NCBI GenBank assembly: GCA_018883165.1 | Contig: VEQN01000007.1 | Coordinates: forward strand, 1-33,930 | Length of the DNA stretch: 33,930 nt | DNA from: Candidatus Tayloriibacteriota bacterium | Lineage (GTDB): Bacteria > Patescibacteriota > Minisyncoccia > Phycocordibacterales > CAIZLB01 | Direction of reading: 5' to 3' | Part shown: positions 19,065 to 28,307 of the stretch, piece by piece | How positions within the stretch are numbered: the stretch's first letter is position 1 | Layout of the letters: every line of letters begins with the position of its first letter | Program-made: the position numbers and the translations under genes | Notes under the pieces: generated by a model | Databases searched by the model: none | What the model was told of the DNA's origin: nothing | What the model saw: the letters and a program-made list of their open reading frames with translations, nothing else

Positions 19065-19535
19065 TTAAAAACCAAAATACTCTAGAATCTTTTGACCTAA
19101 TGGCTCAACATGGTGATTCTCAAGGAGGTGATCCATAAGGAAATCTCTCACTTCTTCAGGATTAACCTCTCCGAGGGGGAGTGCTATAAGGGGTACAACC
19201 ATTCGTCTAGATTTGATGATAAGTTTTGATGGTTTACCAACGTGACGGTTATCCTCAACCCAGAATGATTCGAGTGTACCAAAAGGATAGAGTGTATTAT
19301 CGATCATGATACCTTTTTTACTTACTTCAAAACGGACAACACTTGGTCTTTTTGAACCAAAAAGAGCAAGTGCAAATGTACTGAGCAGTATAAGTAATGA
19401 AAAGAGAGCATTGCTGAATATTACTGCGAGTACTGATATTGAAACTCCGATAATACCAACCGCCCAATACCAGTCAGATGTTTTTTCTTGGAAATAATAT
19501 TCTTCTGTTTCCCAAATGAACGGACCTTTAGCCAT
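19065..19535 (-). CDS. Hypothetical membrane protein with two TM segments
   Basis: 156 aa, hydrophobic pair WYWAVGIIGVSISVLAVIFSNALFSLLILLSTFALALFG. Confidence 0.7.
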   Translation of the reverse strand: MAKGPFIWETEEYYFQEKTSDWYWAVGIIGVSISVLAVIFSNALFSLLILLSTFALALFGSKRPSVVRFEVSKKGIMIDNTLYPFGTLESFWVEDNRHVGKPSKLIIKSRRMVVPLIALPLGEVNPEEVRDFLMDHLLENHHVEPLGQKILEYFGF

Positions 19536-21420: not shown

Positions 21421-21450
21421 AAAAACCCGAGTCAGAGACTTGGGTTTTTC
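21421..21450 (+). terminator. Intrinsic terminator after DUF2339 gene
   Basis: AAAAACCCGAGTC-AG-AGACTTGGGTTTTT stem followed by pyrimidine-rich sequence. Confidence 0.8.
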
Positions 21451-21456
21451 TATATG

Positions 21457-21465
21457 TGCGGAGGA
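21457..21465 (+). repeat. Left att core repeat TGCGGAGGA
   Basis: Identical to 28219-28227. Confidence 0.8.
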
Positions 21466-21563
21466 CCGTTGAGGCTGTTAGAACTTGGTACATGGAACAA
21501 GATGAATCATTTTATATACCCAAACTAGAAAAAGTGGTCCAGATGGGGCCCTTTACCCCGTAA
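21466..21563 (+). pseudogene. Displaced 3' coding end of the serine recombinase (C-terminal tail of the circular form)
   Basis: In frame with the recombinase when the repeats are joined: ...LMLRR|TVEAVRTWYMEQDESFYIPKLEKVVQMGPFTP*, stop TAA at 21561-21563. Confidence 0.7.
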
Positions 21564-21632
21564 AATGACCGCCACAGGGTGGAACAAGTCGCCATGAGAC
21601 TTTTATCTTAAATAGGTATAAAATGTTGAATT

Positions 21633-23087
21633 ATGCTAGAAAAACTAAATGGACTTGTAATCGACCATCTACTTGCGAACCCGGAAGAAGATGAAAGAGT
21701 TGAGTTTAAAGAAAATTATTGTGAAAGTCATAAGCTAGGAGAAATACTCTCGGCTGTTTCTAATAGTGCTAATTTGCTCAATACACAATCTGGATACATC
21801 GTATTTGGTGTTAATAATGAAACTAAGGAGGTGATTGGAACAACTTTCAGACCAAAAGACGTTAAAGTGGGTAATGAAGAGTTGGAACATTGGTTGGTTC
21901 AGAAACTAACTCCAAAAGTTAATCTGAGTATTTATGAAATTGAAAAGAAAAAGAAAAGATTAGTGGTTTTTAAAATAGACGCAGCGGTAGACAGGCCTAC
22001 TTTATTTGACCAAGTGGGCTATGTAAGAGTTGGATCTTTAACCAGAAATATTAAGGATTTTCCTAAAAAAGAGGGGCAGATTTGGCAAAACTTACATCAT
22101 CGAAGTTTTGAGAAACAGACAGCGTATGAATGTGTAGACGAAGACGAAGTGATTAAAATGATTGATTACCCATCATTTTTCCAGACGACCGAATATCCGT
22201 TACCTGAAACAAAAAAACTCATAATTGAGAAACTAAAAGAAGCTGGGTTGGTTAATTATCAAGATGGGGTGTATTTAATAACAAATCTTGGTGCAATTCT
22301 GTTTGCCAGAGATCTACGAAAAATAAAATCTTTAGCCAGAAAATCTCCAAGAGTGATTATTTATGAAGGGACCGATAAGTCCAGTGCAATTCTTGAACAA
22401 GTTGGTATCAAGGGTTACGCAACCGCCTTTCCTCTGCTTTTAGAGTTTATTAATGATAGGTTACCTTCAAATGAGGTCATTACCAGAGCATTAAGACAAT
22501 AGAGAAAAATGTACCCTTTGATAGCAATTAGAGAGTTGGTTGCTAATGCACTGGTACACCAAGATTTTTTCGAGACAGGGACTTCTCCAATGATAGAAAT
22601 TTATAAAGATAGGATTGAGATAGTTAATCCTGGAAAATCTCTTGTTGAAGCGGAAAGATTTATAGACCATATGCCTCGTTCACGAAATGAAGACCTGGCA
22701 TCCTTTATGCGACAAATAAAAATATGTGAAGAGCGTGGCAGTGGAATAGATAAGGTGATAAAAAGTGTAGAGGCTTATCAGTTGCCCGCCCCGAAGTTTG
22801 AAGTGAATGAAGATTTTACAAAGGTAACACTTTACTCCTATAAAAAACTACAAGATATGGACAGGGATGACAAAATTAGAGCCTGTTATCAGCACTGTGT
22901 TTTAAGGTATGTATCGAATGATCCCATGAATAATTCATCACTAAGAAACCGTTTCAATATCAAGGAAAAAAATTACTCAATTGCATCGAGAATAATCAGT
23001 GAGACTGTAAAGCAAGGGTTGATTAAGGTTACAAGTGATAAGACTTCTAAAAAATATATCACTTACGTACCTTTTTGGGCTAAATAG
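21633..23087 (+). pseudogene. AlbA_2 (Schlafen-like) / RecG-C HATPase_c_4 family protein, interrupted by in-frame TAG at 22500-22502
   Basis: ORFs 21633-22502 and 22509-23087 share a frame separated by one TAG. N part: VEFKENYCESHKLGEILSAVSNSANLLNTQSGYIVFGV; C part: MYPLIAIRELVANALVHQDF...IEIYKDRIEIVNPG. Confidence 0.85.
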
Positions 23088-23326
23088 TCTTATGTGATTG
23101 GTAAGTCTCCATAAGCCACTTTTTTGCATTAAAATGGCTATAAATAAGAATATTCTTATGTGACGGTCATGTGATTGTTGTGCTTATACAAAGACATTTC
23201 TTCTAAACACCATAAGTAAAGGGATTTATGCAAATTAAGCGATTAATATCAAGAACGTGTCTTCAGGTCGGGGTGTCTTGATGGGTAAAATTTTGTGTAA
23301 ATTATATATCTGAGCTTGTATTTTAA

Positions 23327-23725
23327 TTAAAACTGATCACAACCAGGGCACACCTCTTGAAGATAGCTTGGATTTCCTCCGGAACCAGATGTCTGCCACA
23401 TCAATAGAACAAGAATGGCAACAATCACTACAATTCCAATATAAATACTTTTTATTTTTTCTTTGAGCCTAAATTCTATTTCTTCTGCGTATTGCATCAC
23501 ATACTCTGCATTATTTCTATAGGCGTGTGGTTTTTCTAAATAAAGTTTGTATTCATTCTCAATTATTTCTTTTAAGACTTTAGTTTTAGTTTCTGAATCG
23601 AATTTGTAACCACAACGTGTAAGATAATCCAATCGTTTTTTATAGTCTATCTTCAAACCTTCATGATGTTCTGTTTCAAATTGATGAAGGGACAAGATGT
23701 GACCTTTTTTGTAAAGTATTTCCAT
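23327..23725 (-). CDS. Hypothetical protein with C-terminal TM segment
   Basis: 132 aa; SIYIGIVVIVAILVLLMW TM near the C-terminus. Confidence 0.6.
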   Translation of the reverse strand: MEILYKKGHILSLHQFETEHHEGLKIDYKKRLDYLTRCGYKFDSETKTKVLKEIIENEYKLYLEKPHAYRNNAEYVMQYAEEIEFRLKEKIKSIYIGIVVIVAILVLLMWQTSGSGGNPSYLQEVCPGCDQF

Positions 23726-23797
23726 CGGCGTATACCTATTTTAGTAAACAGACACATGAAGAGCTTTATGAGACACAAAAAGCCCACCACATGAGTT

Positions 23798-23878
23798 GGT
23801 GACTTGCGTCACCTATACCAGTTTCCCGGTACAGCCTAGGAAGACAACCCCATATGATGGGTTCTTTATCTTCCTAGG
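23798..23878. other. Two adjacent strong hairpins (candidate structured RNA or bidirectional terminator)
   Basis: GGTGAC-TTGC-GTCACC (23798-23813) and CCTAGGAAGA...TCTTCCTAGG (23835-23878) with nested AACCC/GGGTT. Confidence 0.6.
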
Positions 23879-23978
23879 ACTTGCAACCATACCTTAGATA
23901 AAATTTATCAAAGGGTTAGGTCGTCTTTTATTTAGTTGTATTGCCATTATTACAGAAAAAGATATCATTTTCAATAAT

Positions 23979-24623
23979 ATGCGTCCTATTAAGATAATTG
24001 CTCGGAAAAATAAAATCATTAAACAGAATATTGATTCTGTAATAGAAAGTCGTGTTTTTGAAGATGCGGTTAATTGGTTTCGAAAAAAGTACAAAATAAA
24101 GACCATCGGTGAGGATACAAAGCGCAAATTTGAAGCACAGGATGTTGATGAGTATGGATATTATCCTTGGCATAAAGACATCCATGAGGCCTTAAGAAGA
24201 GCATCGCTAGATCACCAGTGGTATTTGATATTTTTTGATTATGTAATGACAGGGAATTATGATCCGGTTCTCGACCCTGAGGGAGTAACTATTTTTGAAG
24301 ACGACTTTAATACAGTGAGGGGAAAAAAGAAAGACTACTACATTAGAATCCATCCGATGACAACAAAAAGAGACTTAATCGATGCTTACACCTACGTTCA
24401 TAAGGAGATAAACGGAAAGAGGGTAACAAAACGAAGATTTGCAAAGAATTTTGAAAGGGACAAAGATGTTTTTTATCTTTTTAGACAAGGTTTAAGACCA
24501 GCTCAGATCGCAGTAGAGATAGAAAAAAAATATTCTGACCCAAACTTCTCAATTTCAAATGTATACAGAATTATTTCTCAGCATTCTAAAAAGATAAAAG
24601 GCGAGAAAAAATTTAAAGCTTAG
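23979..24623 (+). CDS. Hypothetical protein, possible C-terminal helix-turn-helix
   Basis: 214 aa; C-terminal LRPAQIAVEIEKKYSDPNFSISNVYRIISQHSKK resembles HTH. Confidence 0.7.
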   Translation: MRPIKIIARKNKIIKQNIDSVIESRVFEDAVNWFRKKYKIKTIGEDTKRKFEAQDVDEYGYYPWHKDIHEALRRASLDHQWYLIFFDYVMTGNYDPVLDPEGVTIFEDDFNTVRGKKKDYYIRIHPMTTKRDLIDAYTYVHKEINGKRVTKRRFAKNFERDKDVFYLFRQGLRPAQIAVEIEKKYSDPNFSISNVYRIISQHSKKIKGEKKFKA

Positions 24624-24679
24624 GTGTATTGGGTCCAATTAGCCTGAAGCACTTTTTTGTGAATGGTATTTAATTGATT

Positions 24680-24761
24680 GCGAACATCACGGATTAGTGT
24701 TCGCGTCCAGTGCACATCCTCGAAGGTAAGTCAGGACGCGACTTGTCTTTCGGGATGTGCA
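24680..24761 (+). promoter_or_regulatory. Pseudoknot-capable structured leader upstream of the element operon
   Basis: Interleaved stems CGCGTCC 24702-24708/GGACGCG 24734-24740 and TGCACATCC 24711-24719/GGATGTGCA 24753-24761. Alternative hairpin GCGAACA 24680-24686/TGTTCGC 24698-24704 competes for 24702-24704. Confidence 0.7.
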
Positions 24762-24765
24762 TTTT

Positions 24766-24942
24766 ATGGTTGATAAGAAAAAATACATCCTAAAATTTAA
24801 AAGCCTTTATGAACAAAAGAATAAAAAAACTTTATCCGAAGATAAGGCTCTTGAATATTTTGAAAATTTAATCTGCCTTGTGTCGGCGATCACAAACCAT
24901 ATCCCTGTTAACAAGATAATTATCCCTAAAAATGAAAAATAA
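24766..24942 (+). CDS. Small hypothetical protein
   Basis: 58 aa from ATG 24766 (alternative ATG 24757 lies within the pseudoknot strand); overlaps the start of the ATPase gene. Confidence 0.6.
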   Translation: MVDKKKYILKFKSLYEQKNKKTLSEDKALEYFENLICLVSAITNHIPVNKIIIPKNEK

Positions 24943-26077
24943 ACATGAGAGGTTGAAAGAATACATTGATTCCTTAGAAGGGGCTGGAGAGGAGGTGAGT
25001 CTTGATCCACAAGAAGAGAAAACACCACAGCCTTTTTCTTGGAAAGAAATAAATTCAATGATTTTTCCTGAGGATCGGTGGAGGGTTGAAAATTTATTAC
25101 CCATTGAGGGTATTTCAATTCTTGCGTCAGCCTCTGGTGAGGGTAAAACCATAATGATGATGGATCTTATAAAAAGTATTACAAATGGAACACCCTGGCT
25201 TGGACAGTTTAAAATTAAAAAGGCAAAACTCCTGTATGTTAATTTGGAGATGTCGGTCAGTGAGATTCAGCGACGAGGTAGAAAGATAGGTTTTGATGTG
25301 GATGATAATAATCTGATTATTCTAAATGAAGATGACTTTAATTTAAATGAAGGGATCGGACAAGAAGATATGAAATATAAGTGGCTACTTAAATTCATAT
25401 ACGATAAAAAGATTGAGGTTGTCATTATTGACACGTTTAGAGCGGCTTCTGGTGGTTTGAAAGAAGAAAAGGCGGAAGAAATCAGAAAATTTTTTCAGAA
25501 ATTCCAAATTCTTAAAAACTCTGGTGTGTCGGTGGTGTTTCTTGAGCATGTTCGAAAACCGACACAAATCGAAGGTAAAATACCAAAGAAAGAGCAATTG
25601 CTTGGTAGTCAAGATAAGACTGCTAATGCGGAGGTGTTGCTCATGATTCGCAAGGATGATGTGACGGGTAATATAAATGTGTATCAAAGAAAAAATCGAA
25701 TCGGGATTGAGGTACCGCCTTTTGCAATTAGAATGGTTGATATTGTGAAGGATGATGGTACGGAACGAATTGAATTTCAATATGTTGGCGAAATTGATGA
25801 TGACACGAATAAAAAAGAAGAGGCAAAAGACTTGGTCATGCAGATTCTTTCAACAGGAGAAATAAAGACACGGAAGGAACTTGGAGAACTTACAAAGAAA
25901 CAGGTCGGAGATAGAAATCTCAGAGTGGGACTCAAAGAATTGGTACATATGAATATGATTGATTACTTCAAAGACGGAAAGTGTCACTGTTATTTTATAC
26001 CTAAAGAGAAAAAAGAAGAGGAAACAGAAGAGGAATCCTTACTTAATCAAAAGAATGTGGATTTTTTTGATATTTAA
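24932..26077 (+). CDS. RepA-like/AAA_25 RecA-fold ATPase (possible replicative helicase)
   Basis: 381 aa. Walker A ILASASGEGKTIMMMDL, Walker B VVIIDTFRAASGG, LLYVNLEMS, VVFLEHVRKP. Confidence 0.85.
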   Translation: MKNKHERLKEYIDSLEGAGEEVSLDPQEEKTPQPFSWKEINSMIFPEDRWRVENLLPIEGISILASASGEGKTIMMMDLIKSITNGTPWLGQFKIKKAKLLYVNLEMSVSEIQRRGRKIGFDVDDNNLIILNEDDFNLNEGIGQEDMKYKWLLKFIYDKKIEVVIIDTFRAASGGLKEEKAEEIRKFFQKFQILKNSGVSVVFLEHVRKPTQIEGKIPKKEQLLGSQDKTANAEVLLMIRKDDVTGNINVYQRKNRIGIEVPPFAIRMVDIVKDDGTERIEFQYVGEIDDDTNKKEEAKDLVMQILSTGEIKTRKELGELTKKQVGDRNLRVGLKELVHMNMIDYFKDGKCHCYFIPKEKKEEETEEESLLNQKNVDFFDI

Positions 26078-26179
26078 TATATGTGCTACCACTTTGCCAC
26101 TTTAGATTTCTTCCTTTTGGTATATGGGTGGCAAATTGGCAAGTATCTATTACCAAATAATAAAAGTTACCAACAAAAT

Positions 26180-26527
26180 ATGAAACATATATACAAAATA
26201 GAAGATATTGAACACTATCATGATGATTGGGACAGAAGTCACAAAAGCTCTTGTGATTGGTGTTGGATTGGAATAAATGACCTGGGTATTCCCCAGTGTC
26301 GAGACTGTCTAGCTTTGTTTAATTGGAAACGAGATAAAATACTCATTATGAAATACCTCAGTGAACAATTTGGAGAAGAATTCTCCAAAGATGAGTGGTT
26401 GGTGCTAAAAAAGGTTCAAGAGTTGCTCCATACCAGAATGTTTTCCCAGCTTATCTGTGTCCTATATACATATACTGATAATAATGGGAAAATTAAGACT
26501 GACAGACAATTCTATGATAAAAAATAA
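26180..26527 (+). CDS. Small zinc-ribbon-like hypothetical protein
   Basis: SSCDWCWIGINDLGIPQCRDCLALF (two CxxC pairs). Internal ATG 26180 (MKHIYKIEDIEHYHD) preferred over 26081. Confidence 0.6.
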   Translation: MKHIYKIEDIEHYHDDWDRSHKSSCDWCWIGINDLGIPQCRDCLALFNWKRDKILIMKYLSEQFGEEFSKDEWLVLKKVQELLHTRMFSQLICVLYTYTDNNGKIKTDRQFYDKK

Positions 26528-28232
26528 TGAACTAAAATTTTTTGAATACACACGAAAATCAAGTGAAGATTCCCAACGACAAGTTGCTTCTATTGGTGAT
26601 CAAATAGATATTATGCAGAAAATTGTGGAAGGAGAAAATTTATGCGTGGTGGATATTTTTAAGGAAGAAATGAGTGCTAAACAGCCTGGCAGACCTCTTT
26701 TCAATGAAATGTTGGAACGAATAGAAAAAGGCGATGCTAATGCAATTTTGTGTTGGGATATCGACAGGATGTACCGTAACCCATTAGACGAGGGTCGCTT
26801 GAGGTGGATGCTTCAGAAAGGAATCATAAAAGTAATTAAAACCCCCTACAGGCAGTTTTACCCCGATGACGCGGGCCTTTTGATGGGTGTAGAGGGTGGG
26901 CGAGCTACAGACTATGTTATTCGTCTATCAAAGAATGTTCGGCGTGGCCTAAGTTCAAGAATTGCAAAGGGTTGGAGACCCAACCTCGCTCCTATTGGAT
27001 ATAAAAACGAAGGTGTCAAAGGCGAGAAGATTATTGTACCTGATGGTACCAATTTTGAATTGGTTCGTAAAATGTGGGACTTACTTTTAACAGGTTCATA
27101 TTCTGTATCAAAGATACTAGATACAGCTAATAACGAGTGGGGTCTAAGGACAACAGTCCGTAGACGTTTAGGAGGTAAACCACTAAGTCAGGCACAGATT
27201 TATAAAATGTTTAATGACCCATTTTATTACGGATATTTTTGGTGGACCAATCCTTCCACTGAGCAAAAAGAACTCATAAAAGGTAGTCATCAAGCCATGA
27301 TTACCGATAAGGAATACTGGAGAGCACAGACCCTTTTAGGAAGAAAGGGTAAGCAACAGCCAAAAACTAGAGAATTTTATGTTACAGGGCTTATGAAATG
27401 TGGTGAATGTGGTGGAAATGTTACAGCAGAAGAAAAGCATCAAATTATCTGTACTCAGTGTAAATACAAATTTGGATATGAAAACAAAACTGCATGTCCC
27501 AAATGCAGTATAGAAATATCTGAAATGAAAGACGCAACAATTATGGACTACACGTATATCCACTGTACAAAAAAGATAAATAAGAATTGTACACAACGGT
27601 CAATTCGGCTTGATGAACTAGAGAAACAATTTGATGCAAAGCTTGCTGATTTAAAAATAGATGAGGATTATTTACAAATCGCCCTTGATTATCTCCAAGA
27701 AAAACAGCAAAGCTCTGGAAATGCAGAACAAAAGACTAGAGAGTCTCTGCAGACCGCTTATGATAACTGTCAGACTCGTATTAAGAATCTTCATAGAGAA
27801 TATACTTCGCCTCAAAATCTAAATCACGTCCTCTATACACCAGAAGAATTTGCGGAGGAAAAGAAAACTCTTGTCATTGAACGTTCTAGTATTGAGAAAC
27901 ACCTTAAAGAAATAAAAGAAAATTTTGACCATTCTCTTGAGGCGACAGAAAGAACCTATAACTTTTGTGCCTTTGCGCGCCGAAATTTCGACACAAAAGA
28001 TATTCAGAAGAAAAGAGAAATATTTTCTACTATCGGCTCGAACTTAATTTTGAAAGACAAAATACTCAATATTGAAAAGCTACATCCGTATTTACTCATC
28101 GAAAACGAGTTAAAGGCACAAAAAGCCCTGTTTGCTTCGCTCGAACGTAAGAAAATAACCAATCCTGAAGCCCTAAAAACAGAAAAGGACGCCCTATTAC
28201 AGGCGTCACTTCTCATGTTGCGGAGGAGGTGA
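26514..28232 (+). CDS. Large serine recombinase (resolvase + recombinase + zinc ribbon + coiled coil)
   Basis: FEYTRKSSEDSQRQVASIGDQI catalytic region, LCWDIDRMYRNPLDEGRL, GLMKCGECGGNVTAEEK...CTQC...CPKC zinc motifs. Start at 26514 overlaps the upstream CDS; stop lies inside tRNA-Ser. Confidence 0.95.
   Translation: MIKNNELKFFEYTRKSSEDSQRQVASIGDQIDIMQKIVEGENLCVVDIFKEEMSAKQPGRPLFNEMLERIEKGDANAILCWDIDRMYRNPLDEGRLRWMLQKGIIKVIKTPYRQFYPDDAGLLMGVEGGRATDYVIRLSKNVRRGLSSRIAKGWRPNLAPIGYKNEGVKGEKIIVPDGTNFELVRKMWDLLLTGSYSVSKILDTANNEWGLRTTVRRRLGGKPLSQAQIYKMFNDPFYYGYFWWTNPSTEQKELIKGSHQAMITDKEYWRAQTLLGRKGKQQPKTREFYVTGLMKCGECGGNVTAEEKHQIICTQCKYKFGYENKTACPKCSIEISEMKDATIMDYTYIHCTKKINKNCTQRSIRLDELEKQFDAKLADLKIDEDYLQIALDYLQEKQQSSGNAEQKTRESLQTAYDNCQTRIKNLHREYTSPQNLNHVLYTPEEFAEEKKTLVIERSSIEKHLKEIKENFDHSLEATERTYNFCAFARRNFDTKDIQKKREIFSTIGSNLILKDKILNIEKLHPYLLIENELKAQKALFASLERKKITNPEALKTEKDALLQASLLMLRRR
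28219..28227 (+). repeat. Right att core repeat TGCGGAGGA
   Basis: Identical to 21457-21465; overlaps both recombinase CDS and tRNA-Ser 3' end. Confidence 0.8.
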
Positions 28233-28307
28233 GATTCGAACTCACGGTCCCCGTAAAGGGACTCTTGTTTTCAAGACAAGCGCAATCGACCACTCTGCCA
28301 CTCCTCC
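28221..28307 (-). tRNA. tRNA-Ser (anticodon TGA)
   Basis: GGAGGAG...CTTGT-CTTGAAA-ACAAG, long variable arm AGTCCCTTTACGGGGACC, GTGAG-TTCGAAT-CTCAC, CTCCTCC-G; no encoded CCA. Confidence 0.95.

Follow-up and report, generated by a model that had tools for sequence, protein, structure and literature searches.

Integration of an element into a tRNA-Ser gene very probably trims that element's own recombinase. In the model we favour, attP lies in the 3′ end of the recombinase gene, and insertion would cut a 603-residue enzyme to one of 572 residues. Comparison with relatives strongly supports the view that such integrase genes, which contain attP and lose their tail when the element inserts, are widespread. 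The element occupies positions 21466-28219 (6.76 kb) of the stretch of DNA that we analysed, hereafter the window: 33,930 nt of contig VEQN01000007.1 (GCA_018883165.1), forward strand, from a Candidatus Tayloriibacteriota bacterium with a 0.75 Mb genome (30 contigs, 99.7% complete).

The recombinase gene, as it now stands, occupies 26514-28232 on the plus strand. Read from the ATG at 26514, it encodes 572 residues ending in LMLRRR, and its 3′ end runs CTT CTC ATG TTG CGG AGG AGG TGA, with the stop at 28230-28232. The product is a large serine recombinase: it carries the Pfam domains Resolvase (PF00239), Recombinase (PF07508) and Zn_ribbon_recom (PF13408), its profile matches include the SPbeta YokA, A118 and phiC31 integrases, and the model of a homologue (L033) matches 9dxd (E=2e-20; overall TM-scores are low). 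The reading frame ends antisense within the gene for tRNA-Ser(TGA) (28220-28307, minus strand; ARAGORN), which covers the stop and the 10 coding bases before it, and the synteny from tRNA-Ser to a RuvX-like gene is kept in relatives. A 9-bp core, TGCGGAGGA, is found at 28219-28227, within both the recombinase 3′ end and the tRNA gene (attR), and identically on the plus strand at 21457-21465, the host/element junction (attL).

Joining 28227 to 21466 opens a longer gene. The frame continues from LMLRR into TVEAVRTWYMEQDESFYIPKLEKVVQMGPFTP for 32 codons, the first of them completed by A21465, and stops at 21561-21563; the orphan 3′ end that encodes this tail and its stop spans 21466-21563 on the plus strand. 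The joined enzyme has 603 residues. The integrated form lacks the last 32 and gains one Arg and a stop; 571 of the 603 residues remain in a single ORF, and the resolvase, recombinase and zinc-ribbon domains are all retained (Pfam). The expected junctions read CTTCTCATGTTGCGGAGGACCGTTGAGGCTG for the circle and TATATGTGCGGAGGAGGTGAGATTCG for the empty site. An initial annotation of the window had described the recombinase end within tRNA-Ser, the pair of identical cores and the 32-codon open join; frame reading and ARAGORN reproduce the recombinase end to the base, and the coordinates of the cores and the join are likewise exact.

The 9-bp core alone is weak evidence because a third copy (the three begin at 21457, 27851 and 28219) lies inside the recombinase gene, at 27851-27859, and an open frame of 32 codons could well arise by chance. 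Short cores are common, and repeat and frame could fit by accident. Two regularities described below, the enrichment of matches at an offset of 20 and a protein motif at fixed spacing in relatives, put the join far above chance and refute this reading, to which we give next to no credence. The third copy was also considered as an alternative att site and rejected: it sits within the body of the gene, and upstream of the window recombinase the scan at offset 20 picks only 21458.

The left boundary has a host landmark. A terminator-like hairpin with runs of A and T (21421-21449) flanks the left junction on its host side and ends seven bases 5′ of the left core. In the empty relatives L045, L049 and L056, a similar hairpin directly adjoins the tRNA 3′ end. 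Because these relatives put the hairpin right beside the 3′ end of tRNA-Ser, we take 21457 as the probable left junction. The element-free layout in five relatives is a homologue of the small protein of 19065-19535, then tRNA-Ser(TGA), then a RuvX-like gene, an order that does not place the boundary anywhere other than where the initial annotation had drawn it. Support for this boundary is good rather than perfect, because in relatives the DUF2339 gene, which intervenes in the window, does not adjoin this site. DUF2339 synteny failed as a boundary test, its homologues being located elsewhere, and the order o156 / tRNA-Ser / RuvX was taken instead.

Three further genes of the element, all on the plus strand, can be described. 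An AlbA_2/HATPase_c_4 ORF (21633-23087; PF04326, PF13749) is matched over both halves by phrog_12156; a single in-frame TAG at 22500-22502 breaks it into 289 and 192 residues in the same frame, and it may be either a pseudogene or a case of readthrough. A RepA/DnaB-like AAA_25 ATPase follows (24932-26077; PF13481, E=4e-29). The third, an uncharacterised ORF at 26081-26527, overlaps the start of the recombinase; Pfam and further family searches gave no match for it, and it is a possible partner or directionality factor of the recombinase.

The two ends of the element have the geometry of serine integrase sites. In the A118 family, attP has its zinc-ribbon (ZD) motif 5 bp further from the centre than attB does (PMC3783163). 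In the window, TTCGAAC, the antisense of the tRNA T-loop (28235-28241, plus strand), lies 15 nt from the first G of the core, as in attB, and TTAGAAC, a ZD-type motif of the P′ arm (21478-21484, plus strand), lies 20 nt from it, as in attP. This difference equals the 5-bp attB/attP shift of published large serine integrases (PMC3783163). The T-loop motif recurs at the matching 15-nt spacing in the 57 other tRNA-truncated loci examined.

For 58 recombinases we scanned the upstream sequence, up to ~10 kb in most cases and further for a few, the window's among them, for a shared core with the motif. An offset of 20 gave 23 matches, spread over 14 of the 58 loci and including the window site at 21458; every other offset from 10 to 30 gave 0-4, as did each offset on the reverse strand. 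An independent second set of loci gave 6 matches at offset 20 and 0-3 at the others. The inverted motif of the P arm left a weak signal, and the exact DNA motif GAGGCTRTTAGAACTTGG occurs, among 380 genomes, in the window genome only. The Trp that is frequent in the xWL ending reads as antisense of a tRNA 3′ CCA that comes from the element.

Orphan tails are not confined to the window. Thirteen other elements, at genes for tRNA-Asn, Gln, His, Pro and Tyr, have at the far end an orphan tail in frame with the recombinase. The tails share a pattern of VRT, 10 residues, and then [FIV][YFH][IV]P at fixed spacing, with a Pro 13 residues past the Arg of VRT (or its replacement) in all orphan tails listed here. 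They read RTVEAIRTWIATRSDDFYVPNL in L058, whose recombinase is 60% identical, TAEAIRTWISAEKSTFHVPEL in L059, HIVADIRTYWQSGGEHFFIPRL in L076, QTVDNVRTAVQSYNGYIYIPSF in L086, RVVDEIGTAFKDFDKFIYIPDL in L089, RVVNSVRTIIQQQNEYIYIPDL in L094, RIVRDVRMIIQQQDEYIYIPDF in L317, IDSIRTFCGSNDKHFHVPTY in L318 and VLEDVRTELINSLVPIYIPNL in L322; those of L087, L088, L092 and L115 fit in frame with weaker cores. The window tail as a tblastn query matched L058:52-126 (E=2e-4). Moreover, natural homologues outside tRNAs carry the tail segment uninterrupted (VITFWKTNKEHIYIPNY in L033, TVDTVRTFLRENKDIEIADL in L064).

Part of the common VRT signal belongs to the DNA, because the ZD-type motif (GTTCGAAC/TTAGAAC) that encodes this segment is also where the recombinase binds. 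The tail as a whole might even be the mere translation of a DNA half-site, conserved through recombinase binding and not as protein; the V-R-T coding and the near-identity of the DNA there in the window, L058 and L059 would fit. However, [FIV][YFH][IV]P lies ~30-45 nt past the motif, at fixed spacing, and third codon positions vary. Past the att half-site, the ten core-bearing tails have a mean pairwise BLOSUM62 score of 1.57 when read in frame; the other two frames give -0.16 and -0.23, and random positions -1.27 ± 0.17. The Pro is invariant in 10 of 10, with CCC, CCA, CCG and CCT all in use (positions 1-2 fixed, 3 varying), in a set of tails picked after the motif was seen. The test over all sites is less biased: the motif stood at the fixed spacing in 10 of 29 core-bearing sites, 5 of 1697 core-less sites (Fisher p 9e-16) and 2 of 1558 reverse-strand sites (5e-17).

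The half-site account is thus improbable; it appears largely refuted for long-tail elements and possible for short-tail ones. Judged by these comparisons, the tail beyond the half-site, with its YIPxL motif, is evidently kept by selection on the protein in 14 elements. The initial annotation had taken the tail for genuine protein, and the homologous orphan tails and the motif test contradict the alternative of no similarity in any homologue. Its two further proposals, that attP lies within the recombinase gene and that the circular form would encode a C-terminus 32 residues longer, exchanged on integration for one Arg and a stop, are likewise supported, the former by the join, the att geometry and the homologous orphan tails.

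In the model we favour, the recombinase gene would be continuous in the circle and would encode the 603-residue enzyme, with the P′ half-site written into the first codons of the tail (TTAGAAC as V-R-T). Recombination between this attP and the attB in the 3′ end of the tRNA-Ser gene would split off the last 32 codons. These would persist at the opposite end of the element as an orphan that is apparently not translated; the new Arg and stop of the 572-residue form would come from the tRNA gene. The full-length enzyme is presumably the form that integrates, and the tail presumably has a job in the circular state. After integration, an enzyme lacking that job may be re-used less, or may change its partners or direction.

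What the tail does is where two readings of this anatomy part. The gene may overlap attP for economy alone, as a compact layout in which the truncated enzyme works equally well. Some relatives have short tails after VRT (LEDIRTCLLI in L034, REAVRTYIYA in L308); because they exist, the long tail is apparently not required by all relatives. The 572-residue form keeps every recognised domain, and in the L033 model a helix (566-585) sits behind a linker predicted to be disordered, with pLDDT ~50 or below, which suggests that the tail is a peptide on a tether and not a domain of the core. Truncation of the integrase of phage Mx8 left it active, in the account of a review (PMC6070905). We find economy alone a serious possibility, if a little short of an even bet. 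Set against it, the long tail is strongly conserved across 14 elements, although it is not translated with the integrated gene. Such conservation implies that the tail matters when the circle exists: as the orphan is untranslated with the recombinase in the integrated state, selection would act via the circular state, and the full-length enzyme would therefore be made and matter there.

Alternatively, tail loss may be a switch favouring integration over excision, a possibility that the initial annotation had raised; the tail would then be needed for attP × attB recombination or for an integrating mode, and its removal would shut off or redirect the enzyme. Conservation of the tail despite its orphaning, the recurrence of one design across many lineages and tRNA targets, and precedents in which attP inside a gene alters the C-terminus of its product all favour such a switch. 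Serine integrases, however, are already directional without a tail device (PMC3783163), and the short-tailed relatives also count against it. We hold a true switch to be plausible, with the balance somewhat against it.

The anatomy recurs well beyond the window. Homologues of the recombinase include those of L057 (67% identical) and L058-L063 (55-61%), and the nearest lie mostly in genomes of Parcubacteria and other candidate phyla. Among recombinases of species genomes, 52 of the 80 closest terminate antisense in or just past a tRNA or tmRNA gene called by ARAGORN. Their targets are tRNA-Asn (18), His (14), Gln (6), Ser (6) and Trp (4), with Pro, Gly, Asp and tmRNA once each. A longer tail is retained in 12 of the 80; among the remainder, several have ends that resemble tRNA. 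The recombinase genes of L109 and L116 share 95% DNA identity up to GGCTCC, after which L109 has a tail and L116 tRNA-Asn. The L109 tail is that of the next element in a tandem array, which suggests that tails are exchanged between elements.

The intact tails of L109 and L060 were considered as free forms and rejected: a second recombinase and a tRNA lie downstream, as in tandem arrays, and the intact-looking tails belong to the neighbouring element of the array. Tandem arrays or remnants at one tRNA are visible in L059 (59-4300, where as many as six P′ arms follow one another), L036 (1277-3350), L060, L109 and L039 (857); in L060 and L109 the recombinase is fused to the tail of the next element.

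Several other loci depart from the common layout. The recombinases of L067, L078, L100, L130, L133 and L140 end in tRNA-like 3′ halves that ARAGORN did not call, some of them followed by sequences such as GTGGACTATATCAT, and the tRNA genes there look interrupted, possibly by introns. A Verrucomicrobia/Limisphaerales-like group (L066, L068, L072, L073, L074, L077, L079, L137) has a longer conserved tail, DDVRTYGYKAERAAALIYAHFKKEFG, and attP-type spacing in the recombinase gene. The close relatives L057 (6770-6870) and L061 (11680-11740) appear to be integrated outside tRNA genes, with a TTCGAAC-like motif near attB-type spacing and a recombinase stop shortly past the core. In the genome of the window itself, another recombinase (L043, G000:C14, 2318-3877) ends in antisense tRNA-Ala, DPSGFEPLTSSVQMRRSTN.

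Free circles of the window element or its relatives were absent from IMG/VR, scanned with three alignments, and from plasmid and phage collections. Terminal overlaps that mark circular contigs were absent among the loci checked, and the circle junction was absent from viral contigs, searched with junction patterns, and from the window's own assembly.

The closest precedent is Myxococcus phage Mx8. In this phage attP lies within int, and integration alters the C-terminus and specificity of the integrase without inactivating it; the primary work (Tojo 1996, Magrini 1999) is taken here as summarised in one review (PMC6070905). The window element and its 13 relatives, as reconstructed from their DNA, resemble Mx8 in having attP in the integrase coding sequence and a new 3′ end on integration. 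Whereas the Mx8 integrase is placed among the tyrosine integrases (Islander, PMC4383910), the window enzyme is a large serine recombinase. The changed Mx8 enzyme was assayed, with altered specificity in the reviewed account.

A second parallel is the integration-dependent immunity of mycobacteriophages, in which attP lies in the repressor gene, attB lies at a tRNA 3′ end and a stop at the junction trims 20-35 C-terminal residues, the repressor typically losing an ssrA-like degradation tag in a system with a tyrosine integrase (PMC9262239, PMC8092301). An attP in a gene, an attB at a tRNA 3′ end and C-terminal trimming by a junction stop are common to both systems. Here, by contrast, it is the serine integrase itself that is trimmed and not a repressor, and the tails of the window and its relatives share no ssrA-like -AA end (GPFTP in the window; LSVQ, ELV, NNS and ALTS in others).

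Integration of the archaeal SSV viruses splits the integrase gene into two parts. The gene of these integrases extends across attP (PMC4383910). In the window element, unlike SSV, only the last 32 codons leave, no two large fragments result, and the enzyme is of the serine family. In domain order, structural match and the 5-bp ZD shift it resembles the large serine integrases A118/LI, SPbeta YokA, Bxb1 and phiC31, for which neither an attP in the integrase's own gene nor tRNA T-loop targeting is described in the literature searched. Nor did the open-access literature, to which this search was largely confined, describe any serine integrase whose gene contains its own attP; priority is therefore unproven. 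The Islander study of 2014 recorded only tyrosine integrases as targeting tRNA genes, and allowed overlap of tRNA sites with integrases on account of Mx8 and SSV (PMC4383910). Window-type integrases are an exception to its tyrosine-only statement.

The anatomy is, as far as these genomes indicate, confirmed and general, and the switch is a good hypothesis; because short-tailed relatives exist, no universal switch should be assumed. Use of the tRNA T-loop as an attB motif accounts for the range of tRNA genes open to a single family. In every integrated copy of such integrases, gene callers would report the trimmed C-terminus only. Large serine integrases serve as the principal tools for inserting large DNA, and the control of their direction is an open question. 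Tentatively, and with the odds against us, we suggest that the full-length and truncated forms make up a state-dependent integrase, of a tRNA-targeting class that needs no separate factor to set its direction or to shut itself off; as part of the same tentative reading, recombination in this class would trim a conserved C-terminal module, and the class would be common in Patescibacteria and present elsewhere. The free and integrated forms are predicted to differ by that conserved module, and many natural pairs could be compared.
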